Below, piece after piece: positions 28,739 to 34,563 of a stretch of 36,772 bases of DNA. Within the stretch, counting starts at the first letter, position 1; each line of letters opens with the position of its first letter. The notes under the pieces are model-generated. The model did not search any database. It was not told the DNA's origin and was given only the letters and a program-made list of their open reading frames with translations. Source of the stretch: an uncultured Desulfobacteraceae bacterium (GTDB lineage: Bacteria; Desulfobacterota; Desulfobacteria; Desulfobacterales; Desulfobacteraceae); assembly GCA_913041495.1 (NCBI GenBank), contig CAJWHT010000037.1, positions 1-36,772 on the forward strand, written 5' to 3'. The position numbers and the translations under genes are program-made.

Positions 28739-30016
28739 TTACATCTTGGAACCTTCTGCATGGCTCTGCAGTTTTACTTCAACTTTTTCTTTCAGACCGG
28801 CATAGTACTTTCTGAGGATAACCAGAACCTCTTCACGGCCGAAGTGATCAACAACTTCTTCGTTGTTGGACAGGGCGTGGCGCAGTTTGGTACCGGACAG
28901 GATAACACGGTCGTCTTTGCCGTGGGGGCAGGTTCTCATGGAAGCCATGCCGTCGCATTTGTGGCAGTAGAACGTCCAGTCGATCTTCAGGGGTTCGCAC
29001 AGAAGGCGTTTGCCTTCTTCTTCCGGCGTCGGAATGGTGTCGAAGATTTCCTGTGCTTCGAACAGGGTGTAGAAGTCGCCAACACCTGCGTGGTCGCGGC
29101 CGATGATCATTCTGTTGACGCCGTAGTTCTGACGGAAGGTGGCGTGCAGCAGACCTTCGCGGGGACCGGCATATCTCATGTCAAGGGGATAACCGCCGTT
29201 GATTACATGCTCGGGTACGAAGTAATCCTGGATCAGACGATCGATACATTCGATACGAACTTCTGCGGGGATGTCGCCGGGTTTCAGGTTACCGATCAGG
29301 GAGTGGATCAGAACGCCGTCACATACGTCGAGAGCGATCTTGCAAAGATGTTCATGGGATCTGTGCATGGGGTTTCTCAGCTGCATGGAAGCAACGTTTG
29401 CCCAGCCTTTTTCATCCATGATGGCACGGGTTTCAGTCGGGGTCAGGTATACGCCTTTGAACTTCTCGGGGAATTCGCCTTCGGAAAGAACTTTTACGGG
29501 ACCTGCCAGGCAGAACTCTTTTCTGGCCATAACAGCCTGAACGCCGGGATGGTCTTCCATGGCGATTTTCCAGAATACGTCGTCTTCAGACTCTTCGCCG
29601 TGGCCTTTGTATACTTTTTCGCATTCCCATTTTTTCTCTTCTTCGGTCATTTCGAATTTCTCTTCGATTTTCATGGTGGCATATACTTCACCATTTCTTT
29701 CGAGAGCAATTTCGTCGCCTTCGTTGATCTCAGCGGCATCGGCAGCAGAGGCATCGAGCATTACGGGAACCGGCCAGAATGTACCGTCTGCCAGCAGGAA
29801 GTCAGCGCAAACGCCTTTCCAGTCAGCCTTGGTCATGAAACCGTTCAGCGGAGAGAAACCGCCGATACCGAGCATGATCAGGTCGCCTTTAACCTGGGAA
29901 GAGATTTCGATTTTTTTCAGACCTTCGGCTTTTTTGATTTCAGCTTCCAGTTCAGCGCCTTCGAGCTTGCAGATGACAAGACCTTTTCCACCGTGGGGTG
30001 CAACTAATTTAGACAT
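28739..30016 (-). CDS. sat: sulfate adenylyltransferase (dissimilatory)
   Basis: A 425-residue ATP sulfurylase that activates sulfate to APS, the first step of sulfate reduction. The nucleotide-binding motif is [11 protein letters not shown], followed by [12 protein letters not shown] zinc-site-like cysteine group [20 protein letters not shown] is present, as in enzymes of sulfate reducers and sulfur oxidisers. There is no APS kinase domain. Length is normal for the homo-oligomeric prokaryotic form. AAGGAGA precedes the ATG. No aprBA or qmo genes are nearby, so sat is a stand-alone unit with its own leader. Confidence 0.97.
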
Positions 30017-30061
30017 ATACGTCGTTCTCCTTGTTAATTGGTTATCTTACCACTATTAGGG

Positions 30062-30086
30062 GTTAGATACTGTCCCAGCATCTAAC
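30062..30086 (-). promoter_or_regulatory. inverted repeat in the sat leader
   Basis: On the coding strand GTTAGAT and ATCTAAC pair (7 bp, 11-base loop) about 30 bases upstream of the sat ribosome site. It would form a hairpin in the 5' untranslated mRNA, or could be a protein-binding site. The role is inference. Confidence 0.45.
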
Positions 30087-30101
30087 ATCAATTTTATTTA
30101 A

Positions 30102-30141
30102 AAATCTTGTAAGATTTAATGATGATTGAGGAATTTGTCAA
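30102..30141 (-). promoter_or_regulatory. candidate sat promoter with overlapping palindrome
   Basis: On the minus strand TTGACA (30141 down to 30136), right after the HAD stop codon, is a perfect -35. A weak -10 (TAAATC) lies 17 bases on. The palindrome AAATCTT-AC-AAGATTT (30117 down to 30102) overlaps the expected -10 and start point, which suits an operator. As an alternative it could be a weak AT-rich terminator for the HAD gene. Confidence 0.45.
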
Positions 30142-30146
30142 GAAAT

Positions 30147-30779
30147 TTATTCATTTATATTTAAGAGGCCGGCAAGTTCCCCCATGGAGGTGACATGGGC
30201 ATGGGCTTCAAGTCCCATGTTCTTAAATGCAACAAACCAGGTGCCTGCCGCCAGGGCGGCTTTCCGGTCATATTCCGAGTCGCCGATAAAGAGGATTTCT
30301 TCGGGCAGAAGATCAAACTTGTCCATGATTTTTTGCAGCTGATCCGGGGCGGGCTTCGGGTTTTTAACATCTGCAGCCGTAACCACGGTTTCAAACATGG
30401 CAGTCATCTGGTTGTCCTCCAATACGCTTTCCATGGTATTGGTCCGGTTGGTGGCCACCCCCCGGATAAAGCCCTCTTCTTTTAGCCTGCCAAGCAATGT
30501 TATCAGCCCCTTTTCCCGCTGCATGTAGGGGATGAACTTGGCGTACCCGATGGAACGTATCTTATCGTATACCGGAAGGTGGTCCCCGAACTCAGGAAAG
30601 AGGTATTCGATGGCCGCCGTCACCGTCATCATATGCACGTTGATAAACTGTTCTTCGGTCAATTCGGGTTTGCCGAATGCATCCAGAATTTCATCGTAGA
30701 ATTTACGGTTGGACAGGGCCGTGTCAAACATCACCCCATCGCAGTCGAACACCACGGCCTTAACTTTAGAAAGTTCCAT
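30147..30779 (-). CDS. HAD-family phosphatase, phosphoglycolate-phosphatase-like
   Basis: A 210-residue haloacid dehalogenase-fold hydrolase. Motif I is VVFDCDGVMFDT (nucleophile Asp and the second Asp), motif II is the VATNRTNTM region, and motif IV is FIGDSEYDRKAA with the metal-binding Asp pair. A helical cap lies between motifs I and II. The specific substrate cannot be assigned; phosphoglycolate phosphatase and nucleotide phosphatases are both possible. AAGGCG precedes the ATG. It lies between the DUF1573 gene and sat on the same strand. Confidence 0.9.
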   Translation of the reverse strand: MELSKVKAVVFDCDGVMFDTALSNRKFYDEILDAFGKPELTEEQFINVHMMTVTAAIEYLFPEFGDHLPVYDKIRSIGYAKFIPYMQREKGLITLLGRLKEEGFIRGVATNRTNTMESVLEDNQMTAMFETVVTAADVKNPKPAPDQLQKIMDKFDLLPEEILFIGDSEYDRKAALAAGTWFVAFKNMGLEAHAHVTSMGELAGLLNINE

Positions 30780-30847
30780 TGAGTCGCCTTAAAATTGATT
30801 CGCTAAAAAAATAATCTGCCCGAAGTCAGATGCCAGTCGTGAAAACG

Positions 30848-31555
30848 TCAGGATTTTTTGCCGGATTCGTCAAAATAAATGGCATACACCCGGATTTTCA
30901 GCTTGGGTTTGAGCGTGCTGTCGGTCTTCAGCGTAATAACATCGTAGAGGTCATCCGCCTTGTCCGAATGGGCCAAAACCTTCACCTGCCAGTCCTTTTC
31001 CCCGTCTTTGGGCGGAATCAGCTCCGCTTTGATCTGGGAGTCGAACCGCTGGGATATTTCCTTTATCGTGAACGGATATTTTTCTGCCGGCGTAATGGTT
31101 ACATAAGTTTCCAAAGATTCACCGGGAACGCCGCTGAGGCTGACTGTGGCAGGTGAAATTTCGACAACGGAATCCACCTGGCCTGTAACGGTCAGATAAA
31201 ACTGCTTGTTCTTCGGATCATCGGTTTTCACAAGGATCCGTTTATTCAACTGCTTGCCGCCGTATCCGCCGGTTTTAATACCGATTTTGATTTTGCCTTC
31301 CCCTCCCGGGGGAATTCGCCTGTCATAGGCACGTTTGTCGCAGCCTCAGGGGGGAATCACGCCGAGAATATTCAGGGGGGTGTCCCCTTCATTCCGGATC
31401 ATGAATTCATGGGTGATACTCCGGCCCTCTGCCACATCTGAAAATTCAAAGGACGGGTTCACCGGTACGGCCTTGGGTGCGGCCAGCCCCACACCTGCGG
31501 ACACAGCCATAATAAAAACGGTGGCTGAAATAAGTAGTAGTCTTTTCATGGTCAT
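30848..31555 (-). CDS. exported DUF1573 protein, candidate selenoprotein with in-frame TGA (Sec70)
   Basis: A single frame of 236 codons is continuous except for one TGA at 31346-31348 (codon 70). The N-terminus is a signal peptide (MKRLLL start, hydrophobic core, likely cut near GLAA). It is followed by a DUF1573 beta domain with FEFSDVAEGRSITHEFMIRN and the motif PP-(TGA)-GCDK, then IPPGGEGKIKIGIKTGGYGG and ILVKTDDP. DUF1573 members usually carry Cys-Gly-Cys (SCGCT) at this place, so TGA replaces the first Cys exactly and homology continues undisturbed on both sides. Hairpins that could serve as SECIS follow. Residues about 145-235 form a second, Ig-like domain. It could also be a nonsense mutation or base-calling error. 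The DUF1573 function is not established; a redox or metal-related role would fit Sec-Gly-Cys (inference). Confidence 0.72.
31298..31330 (-). promoter_or_regulatory. candidate bacterial SECIS hairpins downstream of the in-frame TGA
   Basis: Reading the minus strand after the TGA, hairpin A is GCCT-ATGAC-AGGC (31330-31318), with its loop 19 bases after the TGA. Hairpin B is TTCCCC-CGGGA-GGGGAA (31314-31298), with a G-rich loop 37 bases after it. Bacterial SECIS loops usually lie about 16-37 bases after the UGA and need a G in the apical loop. A fits spacing best and B has the stronger stem and G-rich loop. No folding was run. Confidence 0.45.
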
Positions 31556-31669
31556 TCCATTCCTAACTTGATTGATCTTTCTGAATAGAATCTATCCCAA
31601 TCCCAGCGTAAATACAATAGTCCGGTATCGGGTACCCGTTAAACCTGCGTGACTGGAAAATAGGCGCGT

Positions 31670-33943
31670 TTATCTTTTTGCCAGTTCACGGTTGATTCGG
31701 TCACTGACCCCCGCATCATGGTGGACGGGCCTGCCGTTGATTCGATTGACCCGGACCGCCCCCATGAGTGCATTGGTCACCATGACATTGGGCAAATTCG
31801 TCAGCGCCTCGGGTGTCAACGGCCTGGTCTCAACAGTATACCCCTGAGCAGCCAATGCCTCTTTCACCGCCTCAACCGTGACCCCCGGCAGCACATTCGG
31901 TGACGCAGGTATAACGATTGAGTTTTCCGCCACAGCCATAATATTGCAGGTGTTGGTTTCAGAGACACTTTCGTCAGGATTCAGGATCAGGGCTTCGTCA
32001 GCCCCCTGCGCCTCAGCAAATGCACCGGCCCTTTCATAAAACAGGTAGTTCATGGACTTGTGATCCGCCAGAAAACTCTGGCGGGGATGGGGAAATGTAA
32101 CCAGGTCAATCCCGGTTTTTCCGAGCATCTCCAACCGGTGGACATAGGGCCGGATAAAGGCGGCAGAAAAAAGTTTCTCACGGCTGCCGTCGATGGCGGC
32201 CACAAGTTTCACCGCACAGATCTCGTTCTCCAACCTGTTTTCTTTCACCAGCAACCGGATTACGGCGTCCCATGTAACATCCGGCGGATGGGTTTCAAAC
32301 AGGCTGCGCCAGGACTGAGCTAACCTGCGTTCATGGGCATCCAGCCGCAGGGGAACCCCTTTTTCCACCCGGATGGTTTCAAACAGTCCGGCCCCGTATT
32401 GGAACGCCTGGCTTGCCGCAGGCACACGGGCACGGTCCTGATCCGTAAGTTTGCCGTTTACCCAGGCTTTCTGGCATAAATCCCGGGTACCTGATGATGC
32501 CGCCATCAGGGTTTCCATTAGGGTTTTGCCCTTATCCAGGGTTTCCTGGTACTCTTTTTCCGGATCGGAATCATAGACAATGCCGCCGCCCACAGAAAAG
32601 AAAAGCCGGTTTTCCGTGATGGTGGCTGTCCGGATGGCAATGGACAGATCCATGGTGCCGTGAAAACTTAAGTACCCGATGGATCCCGTATAGACGTGCC
32701 GTTTTACCGGCTCCAGTTCATCAATGATCTCCATGGAACGGATTTTGGGGCACCCGGTAATGGATCCCCCGGGAAAGGTGGCCCGGACCAGGTCAACGGC
32801 GGTCTTGTCTTCTTGCAACACGCCCTCCACCACGGATACCAGGTGGAAGACATTTTCATAGGGTTCCAGGCGTTTGTGTTCCGTGACCGCCACGGAACCG
32901 AACTCCGTGACCCTGGAGATATCGTTGCGCATCAGGTCCACGATCATGGTGAGTTCTGCATCGTCTTTAAGACTTGAGGCAAGCATCCGGCCGTTTTCCT
33001 CATCAGCTTCAGGGGTGCGGCCCCGGGCAATGGTTCCCTTGATGGGCCGGGTCTCCACGTGCCGGCCGGACAGTTTGATGAACCGTTCGGGTGATGTGGA
33101 CACCACATGGTGGTCTCCGGCATGGATATAGGAAAAGAACGCGGCAGGATTCCGGTTGAACAACTCCATAAAAAGGCTGTAGGCATCCCCTGTGAACCCT
33201 GTGTCAAAGCGCTGGGAAAGATTGGCCTGATAAATGTCTCCGGCCCTCAAATAGTCGATGACCTTTGAAACGGCGGCCATATATTCCGGTTTGGTAAACG
33301 AAGAGGTAAACCCGCGGCTGTCAATGGCGTATCCGGAAGGTTCCCAGGCCCTGTCAAGCGTGGCCAGAAATTTGAGTTCCGTATCCGCTGCCAGTGCATC
33401 AGCGTCCTCCCGGTCAAAAAGGGGAATGCACAGACGGGTCTTGCCGGTTTCACGGTCATGGATCATCAGGGCGGCGGGGGCGTAGAGCAGGATGTCCGGT
33501 AAAAAGGTATCCGAACACGTCCTGGGCAGATCTTCGATCCGGTCCTTAAGATCATAGGCAAAATAGCCGAACAGCCCCGATGCCACCGGCAAATCGGTTA
33601 CCAGACGCTCGGGTGAGCACTGCTCTATAATCGCCCGGACCAGGTCAAAAGGGTCTGCTTCAGCTGGGGTGCCGCTGCCATCTTCGGCATTCGAAACTGC
33701 GCCCAAATCCACGGACTCACCCGCAACTGTCAGAGATAGTCTGTTCTGGTATCCGCGCAGTTCGAGCCAGGGATCCACGGCCAGACAATTGTACCTGGCG
33801 CAGTCCATATCTGAACCGGACAGCAGCAGAACGGTGCCGGGCCGGTCCGAAAACCGGGCAGCAGCATCCTCAAAGGACAGGTTCAGACTCAGGTCCCGGA
33901 CAACGACATCTTTTATTTTTGGCAGGTGGTGCAGGCGTTCCAT
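31670..33943 (-). CDS. pabBC: fused aminodeoxychorismate synthase component I and aminodeoxychorismate lyase
   Basis: A 757-residue bifunctional enzyme for p-aminobenzoate (folate) synthesis. Residues 1 to about 470 are PabB: GDIYQANLSQRF, the PIKGT motif (Lys marks aminodeoxychorismate rather than anthranilate synthase), FPGGSITGCPKIRSMEIIDE and GSIGYLSFHG. Residues about 485-757 are a PabC-type PLP lyase: FQYGAGLFETIRV, the PLP Lys in DHKSMNYLFYERA, and SETNTCNIMAV. The start ATG overlaps the stop of the upstream hydrolase (TAATG). The glutaminase PabA is not in the window. Confidence 0.94.
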   Translation of the reverse strand: MERLHHLPKIKDVVVRDLSLNLSFEDAAARFSDRPGTVLLLSGSDMDCARYNCLAVDPWLELRGYQNRLSLTVAGESVDLGAVSNAEDGSGTPAEADPFDLVRAIIEQCSPERLVTDLPVASGLFGYFAYDLKDRIEDLPRTCSDTFLPDILLYAPAALMIHDRETGKTRLCIPLFDREDADALAADTELKFLATLDRAWEPSGYAIDSRGFTSSFTKPEYMAAVSKVIDYLRAGDIYQANLSQRFDTGFTGDAYSLFMELFNRNPAAFFSYIHAGDHHVVSTSPERFIKLSGRHVETRPIKGTIARGRTPEADEENGRMLASSLKDDAELTMIVDLMRNDISRVTEFGSVAVTEHKRLEPYENVFHLVSVVEGVLQEDKTAVDLVRATFPGGSITGCPKIRSMEIIDELEPVKRHVYTGSIGYLSFHGTMDLSIAIRTATITENRLFFSVGGGIVYDSDPEKEYQETLDKGKTLMETLMAASSGTRDLCQKAWVNGKLTDQDRARVPAASQAFQYGAGLFETIRVEKGVPLRLDAHERRLAQSWRSLFETHPPDVTWDAVIRLLVKENRLENEICAVKLVAAIDGSREKLFSAAFIRPYVHRLEMLGKTGIDLVTFPHPRQSFLADHKSMNYLFYERAGAFAEAQGADEALILNPDESVSETNTCNIMAVAENSIVIPASPNVLPGVTVEAVKEALAAQGYTVETRPLTPEALTNLPNVMVTNALMGAVRVNRINGRPVHHDAGVSDRINRELAKR

Positions 33944-34563
33944 TATCTGAGAAATGGATTCATCCGTTTTTCGTTCCCGATGCTGGTCTCAGGGCCATGA
34001 CCGGTATAGACCACCGTATCCTCATCCAGTCCCAGCAGCTTTGTTTTGATGCTGGAAATCAGGGTGTCGTAATCGCCTCCCGGCAGGTCTGTCCGGCCGA
34101 TGGACCCGGCAAACAGGGTGTCTCCTGCAAAGAGATGCCCGGGGGTGTAAAGGCAGACGCCGCCGGGGGAATGGCCGGGCGTATGGATGACTTTGAGGGT
34201 AATGTCACCGAAAACAATTTCATCCCCGTCTTTGAGAAGCTGGTCAGCTTCGGGGGAGTTTTCAGCGGACAGTCCGAACATGGCGGCCGACCGGGACAAC
34301 TCGGTCAGCATGGGGGCGTCGCCGGGGTGGATGGCAATGGGTGCAGCCGTGGTTTCCTTCATCCGCTTGTTGGCCCCCACATGGTCAAAATGGCCATGGG
34401 TGTTGATCAGGTATTTGACCGTCAATTCCTCCTTGGCCAGGGCCATGAGGATTCTGTCCGCATCATCACCCGGATCAATAACAACCGCTTCTTTTGTGTT
34501 CTCACATCCAAGGATAAAACAATTGGCCATGATGGGGCCGACTTCAAGCTTTCTTATAATCAC
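33943..34563 (-). CDS. metallo-beta-lactamase-fold hydrolase, glyoxalase II-like
   Basis: A 206-residue MBL-fold protein. It has the metal-binding THGHFDHVG (HxHxDH), a third metal His in HTPGHSPGGVCLY, the bridging Asp in LFAGDTLFAGSIGRTD, and a late GHGPET. The size and motifs match the small glyoxalase II-like thioesterases (hydroxyacylglutathione hydrolase-like), but glutathione use in an anaerobe is doubtful. The start is GTG 34563, overlapping the nusB stop (GTGA); the stop overlaps the pabBC start (TAATG). Confidence 0.9.
   Translation of the reverse strand: MIIRKLEVGPIMANCFILGCENTKEAVVIDPGDDADRILMALAKEELTVKYLINTHGHFDHVGANKRMKETTAAPIAIHPGDAPMLTELSRSAAMFGLSAENSPEADQLLKDGDEIVFGDITLKVIHTPGHSPGGVCLYTPGHLFAGDTLFAGSIGRTDLPGGDYDTLISSIKTKLLGLDEDTVVYTGHGPETSIGNEKRMNPFLR

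Follow-up and report, generated by a model that had tools for sequence, protein, structure and literature searches.

An in-frame TGA in a DUF1573 gene of an uncultured Desulfobacteraceae bacterium very probably encodes selenocysteine in a member of the OS_HP2 selenoprotein family

The DUF1573 gene described here very probably belongs to OS_HP2, a known family of DUF1573 selenoproteins, with selenocysteine (Sec, U) encoded by an in-frame TGA as the first residue of a U-G-C motif. It lies in a stretch of 36,772 nucleotides (the window: contig CAJWHT010000037.1 of assembly GCA_913041495.1, positions 1 to 36,772) from an uncultured Desulfobacteraceae bacterium, and the features discussed below are collected in Table 1. 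As far as sequence can settle it, the apparently broken gene is a selenoprotein gene. The replacement of Cys-Gly-Cys by Sec-Gly-Cys, proposed in an earlier sequence-only reading, is strongly supported by the codons of the homologues, by selection on the part after the TGA, by the local RNA structure across the family and by the sel genes of the genome.

Table 1. Features of the DUF1573 gene and its downstream neighbours (positions of the window)
Feature	Position	Strand	Basis
Very probable selenoprotein gene of the OS_HP2/DUF1573 family (235 codons and a stop; Sec encoded by codon 70)	30848..31555	-	Frame translation, DUF1573 and NF041425 matches, homologue column
In-frame TGA, very probably read as selenocysteine, first residue of U-G-C	31346..31348	-	TGA in 100 of 134 non-redundant homologues
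TGC codon for Cys72, the partner of Sec70	31340..31342	-	Cys in all 28 aligned Sec forms
Signal-peptide-like N-terminus, residues 1-26 (basic start, hydrophobic core, GLAA end before PKA)	31478..31555	-	By eye from the sequence
DUF1573 Ig-like domain, residues 34-127, contains U70 and C72	31175..31456	-	Pfam match and predicted model
Second all-beta domain, about residues 130-235, without a Pfam name	30851..31168	-	Predicted model; Pfam names the first domain only
Candidate SECIS hairpin (UGCCU-AUGAC-AGGCG), beginning 17 nt past the T of the TGA	31317..31331	-	Fold; not significant alone
HAD_2 phosphatase-like gene, directly downstream, conserved neighbour	30147..30779	-	Neighbourhood comparison
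Sulfate adenylyltransferase gene, two genes downstream	28739-30016	-	Gene order in the window

On the minus strand, the frame runs from an ATG (31555-31553) to a TGA stop (30850-30848) with a single in-frame TGA (31348-31346) at codon 70, preceded by 69 codons and followed by 165, and the peptide around it reads LNILGVIPP-U-GCDKRAYDR. On the plus strand, the frame translated over the same positions contains several stops; the sequence-only reading named no strand, and its description of one TGA in an otherwise intact 235-residue frame holds for the minus strand. When codon 70 is read as Cys, Pfam DUF1573 (PF07610) matches residues 34-127 (58.4 bits, cut-off 26.1) without a frame change, so that the homology crosses the TGA and continues in the same frame on both sides, again as that reading had stated.

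The protein also matches the NCBIfam profile NF041425 (OS_HP2_seleno, "OS_HP2 family (seleno)protein") over residues 33-127 with 124.4 bits (curated cut-off 100), and all 28 rows of the alignment of Sec forms match that profile at E ≤ 1e-10. In the accessible parts of the literature, OS_HP2 is tabulated with pfam07610 and a UxC motif (PMC2398784, 2008), and DUF1573 is tabulated with UGC in two reviews (PMC9312934, 2022; PMC13188914, 2026), both of which trace the DUF1573 selenoprotein to Zhang and Gladyshev 2007; DUF1573 occupies one row of an iron-response table in the accessible part of PMC10434189. With a profile match and with DUF1573 tabulated with UxC or UGC since 2008, the family is known and the gene is one more member; the suggestion that it might represent a new selenoprotein family is not borne out. 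The domain, the Sec motif (UGC or UxC) and a score above the curated cut-off are common to this gene and OS_HP2, whose original sequence is that of an Olavius symbiont, and, judged by profile and motif, we found nothing that sets the gene apart as a family. Cys-containing DUF1573 proteins (PF07610) share the Ig-like domain and the place of the Cys motif, but they have Cys for Sec, little RNA structure downstream and, more rarely, a HAD gene alongside (4 of the 23 judged). TlpA proteins have a thioredoxin-type fold. The UGC-containing TlpA family selenoprotein in the accessible part of PMC13188914 has the same tripeptide motif and, by its label, a TlpA/thioredoxin-type domain, whereas the protein here is predicted to be all-beta.

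Homologues occur in 54 of the 59 related genomes searched. In this first set, with 69 of 76 rows examined (the seven left out include one in G039:C48 with one TGA), the Sec column holds TGA in 58 of 72 aligned homologues, TGC in 12 and TGT in two. A profile of the 28 Sec forms, run against 395 genomes of the phylum, gives matches in 150 at E ≤ 1e-15; 70 loci of this search (30 returned and 40 fetched) contain 50 TGA and 20 Cys codons, a ratio that favours Sec forms because the loci come mostly from among the best matches listed. After removal of eight duplicates among 142 loci, 134 non-redundant homologues remain, 100 with TGA and 34 with Cys, counts that are not natural frequencies since the queries were Sec forms. 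The recurrence of TGA at this column is far beyond chance. The search for Sec/Cys exchange proposed in the sequence-only reading returns, among the homologues examined, only TGA or Cys codons at the column, and the TGA falls, as was claimed there, at the first position of the x-Gly-Cys motif of DUF1573: the motif is U-G-C in every one of the 100 TGA copies, and the Cys copies have CGC (16), CAC (11) or other forms (7). Placement of the column was aided, with L071 moved one residue by hand and, in the second set, a scripted shift of up to two residues toward TGA, TGC or TGT; in L075, L147, L156 and L158 the motif is CCG-like and the column uncertain. In all seven homologues fetched that were flagged with TAA or TAG alone (L056, L065, L074, L076, L079, L119 and L126), the Sec column holds a Cys codon; two more such rows (G016:C1:1580543 and G390:C55) lie outside this count. 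Among the genomes searched, 16 of the 18 others in the genus and 16 of the 17 others in the rest of the family have a verified Sec copy.

The surroundings of the motif show trends of their own. Of the 100 TGA copies, 67 have Gly and 24 have Pro directly before Sec; in the Cys copies that position is Gly in 4 of 34 and mostly Asp (11) or Ser (9). The clade of the present gene has P-P-U-G-C-D, and in most other Sec forms Gly precedes Sec, and T, S or A follows Cys. A G directly follows the TGA in all 100 TGA copies.

A tree of the 134 proteins, computed with the Sec column masked, requires 15 changes between U and C, at least seven of them forced by well-supported branches, and none of 500 shuffles of the labels gives a number as low as 15; it is a quick tree, with 56 of its 131 inner branches poorly supported. 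Recent exchanges separate L010 (Sec) from L040 (Cys), its sister within genome G008, and L066 (Sec) from its sister L068 (Cys). A Sec copy and a Cys copy (L111 and L127) also stand in tandem in one genome (G094:C37:14652-16313). Ten of ten pairs tested have a lower dN than dS downstream of the TGA (for instance, 0.018 vs. 0.28 for L038/L039), with several of the dS values in the test saturated; before the TGA, dN equals dS in one near-identical pair (L015/L018). Purifying selection acts on the codons that follow the TGA. The sequence-only reading had named decay, with other disruptions in close relatives, as a sign against a selenoprotein; the relatives share the TGA instead and keep the region that follows it.

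Bacterial SECIS hairpins lie within the coding sequence, just 3′ of the UGA, and as a rule have a G among the first two bases of the apical loop. At this place, RNA structure in the family is clear and selected. In a synonymous-recoding test that drew on pooled codon usage and took the 30 nt from 9 nt past the T of the UGA onward, the mean z is −1.86 (se 0.12, n = 100) after TGA vs. −0.48 (se 0.21, n = 34) after Cys, the standard errors being too small because the sequences are related; at seven control positions in the same genes, z ranges from −0.35 to +0.11 in TGA copies and from −0.41 to +0.04 in Cys copies. A helix of seven pairs can be placed on an alignment of 78 of the 100 TGA sequences (those omitted are mainly near relatives of rows kept), with 65.4% of the cells paired and a covariation score of 0.375 vs. 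at most 0.222 when the helix is slid by one to three columns. Three of five measures lie above all 500 shuffles (paired cells, cells with changes on both sides, and covariation score), and two do not exceed theirs (pairs changed on both sides, 7 vs. 6.9; further pair types, 21 vs. 20.6). RNAalifold finds no consensus structure on the 78-sequence alignment, we think because the hairpin registers differ between clades.

The candidate hairpin of the window's own gene has a register different from that of the seven-pair helix, and it is not significant alone (p 0.15 by energy and 0.09 by hairpin score); single-sequence folds of the gene give z from −0.12 to −1.04 and show no SECIS. Its predicted apical loop, AUGAC, has no G in the first two bases. 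An Rfam search of the window at gathering scores returned no match, and a scan of positions 30000-34100 for promoters and terminators gave five promoter-like sites vs. 3.5 in shuffles and three terminator-like sites vs. 5.3. The Cys copy L068 (G003:C28:21892-22476), sister to the Sec copy L066, has a strong hairpin at the SECIS place (energy z −2.84, p 0.012), which may be left over from a recent change from Sec to Cys.

The genes for Sec synthesis and insertion that the sequence-only reading proposed to look for (selA, selB, selD and selC) all occur in the genome of the window. The tRNA-Sec scores 74.6 bits (cut-off 47) and selA 605 bits, with selA over the cut-off in one of 14 control genomes. 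There are two selD genes (G000:C31:12717-13640 and G000:C39:2378-3307), each with one in-frame TGA, so that both SelD proteins may themselves be selenoproteins. The selB gene is apparently split into two pieces, one in contig C20 (profile positions 1-268, 294 bits, above the cut-off) and one in C313 (positions 306-580, 42.6 bits, below the cut-off). Of the 395 genomes sampled from the phylum, 354 have a tRNA-Sec over the cut-off, as have 5 of 14 control genomes; it is so common in the phylum sample that its co-occurrence with the gene discriminates little. Among the matches listed, at least four TGA-bearing genomes (G038, G134, G241 and G288) have no tRNA-Sec match; in each of them selB is matched over its full length and above the cut-off. 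A looser tRNA-Sec search of these four gives 42-47 bits, one over the gathering score, and says little, since other tRNAs also score near 40 (in 14 of 14 control genomes at that threshold).

Three other explanations of the TGA (a pseudogene, a sequencing error, a change of code) are judged very unlikely. Under translation table 11, TGA is a stop, and the gene could be a pseudogene with a nonsense mutation that truncates the protein at residue 69; the presence of the same codon in homologues of many genera, purifying selection beyond it in every pair tested and RNA structure downstream of it in the TGA copies leave this practically no room. An error of assembly or sequencing, with TGC or TGT as the true codon, is conceivable, since the draft has 328 contigs and an estimated contamination of 4.63%, but the nearest relatives (L008/L037, L009 and L010, 60-69% identical), which come from other assemblies, share the TGA, as do dozens of further assemblies at the same codon, and such an error is hardly credible. 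The UGA could also be decoded otherwise, through a genome-wide assignment of TGA to Trp or through leaky read-through that gives Trp or another residue. This is highly improbable as well: the column alternates with Cys only (34 of 34 non-TGA homologues examined), the genome has tRNA-Sec, SelA and SelD, and TGA also terminates the DUF1573 frame itself and other frames of the window.

The AlphaFold2 model of the selenoprotein, built from four sequences, is all-beta with two Ig-like domains (mean pLDDT 84.2, pTM 0.67, with pLDDT below 50 for residues 1-22), and in it the strands 61-67 and 72-77 lie to either side of U70 and G71. The best Foldseek rows are proteins of the ciliary central apparatus (7sqc and 9ijj), which we take to be HYDIN/ASH-type from a Pfam match rather than from the Foldseek rows, and 2qsv of Porphyromonas gingivalis. 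They have in common with the predicted model an Ig-like fold; the TM-score over the query is at most 0.47 in the best 50 rows, identity is low, and no redox role is implied. A profile search of the PDB sequences gave five rows (four troponin I and one 2qsv, E 0.027-0.088), none of which is taken as evidence. In the accessible parts of the literature searched, which covered few subscription journals, we found no description of DUF1573 function.

In the 28 Sec forms (with U written as C), the invariant residues are G44, N55, G57, L61, C70, G71, C72, G87 and T211, among which U70 and C72 are the sole ones suited to redox chemistry. Because no other residue of redox or metal type is invariant, a periplasmic selenol/thiol redox pair is favoured. 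The CGC tripeptide is described, in the accessible part of PMC4316792 (citing Woycechowsky and Raines 2003), as a mimic of disulfide isomerase with a potential of −167 mV. In the mechanism that we propose, SelB bound to the candidate hairpin downstream would deliver Sec-tRNA to the UGA, and the full-length protein would be exported by its putative Sec-type signal peptide, recognized by eye. Separated by a single glycine on a predicted loop of the first Ig-like domain, Sec70 (through its selenol) and Cys72 (through its thiol) would form a reversible selenenylsulfide and exchange, in the periplasm, with the disulfide of a partner, as a reductase or an isomerase would. We give a redox role of the pair in the periplasm about even chances, and the precise reaction would be far less certain than that. 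The Sec/Cys pair might otherwise be a ligand of a metal or cofactor, or the protein a structural binder of Ig type outside thiol-disulfide chemistry. An Ig-like fold is often a binding fold, and the Cys forms with CAC, CSC and CRC retain the spacing and not the glycine; but the 28 Sec forms have no further invariant His, Asp, Glu or Cys for a metal site, and we consider a ligand or binder rather unlikely.

In the window, the minus strand carries, in order, a pabB/pabC-like fusion, the DUF1573 gene, the HAD_2 phosphatase-like gene and the gene for sulfate adenylyltransferase. A HAD homologue on the same strand and at most 1 kb downstream is found in 59 of 80 judged Sec copies vs. 4 of 23 judged Cys copies, a copy being judged if it has a HAD match or a flank of 500 bases or longer. 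Neither applies to 20 Sec and 11 Cys copies; their omission slightly favours HAD matches, and the counts are inflated since the copies are related. With the count restricted to copies with at least 500 bases of flank, the numbers are 56 of 77 vs. 2 of 21. Some of the more distant Sec copies (L120-L122) stand beside other genes. By eye, the start of a sulfate adenylyltransferase gene lies 3′ of the HAD gene in 11 of 24 further loci listed.

The conserved HAD gene downstream suggests co-expression, not a known reaction or function. In L043, L044, L059 and L062, the ATG of the HAD gene overlaps the stop codon of the DUF1573 gene. The Sec DUF1573 gene and the HAD gene could, as a speculative and rather doubtful proposal, form an undescribed module of Desulfobacterales in which an exported selenol redox protein is co-made with, and functionally tied to, a cytoplasmic phosphatase; where stop and start overlap, translation of the phosphatase would depend on read-through of the UGA and hence on the supply of selenium. 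Our literature search, which covered few subscription journals, found neither work on the gene neighbourhood of DUF1573 nor a prior report of a Sec DUF1573 gene beside a HAD phosphatase gene.

In the literature examined, the OS_HP2/DUF1573 selenoprotein family is described only in lists and in a profile library. It is not rare near the window, for it is present in most of the related sulfate-reducing bacteria examined. A Sec protein of sulfate reducers that is predicted to be exported, that has exchanged Sec and Cys repeatedly and that keeps a constant neighbour offers a role that can be tested.
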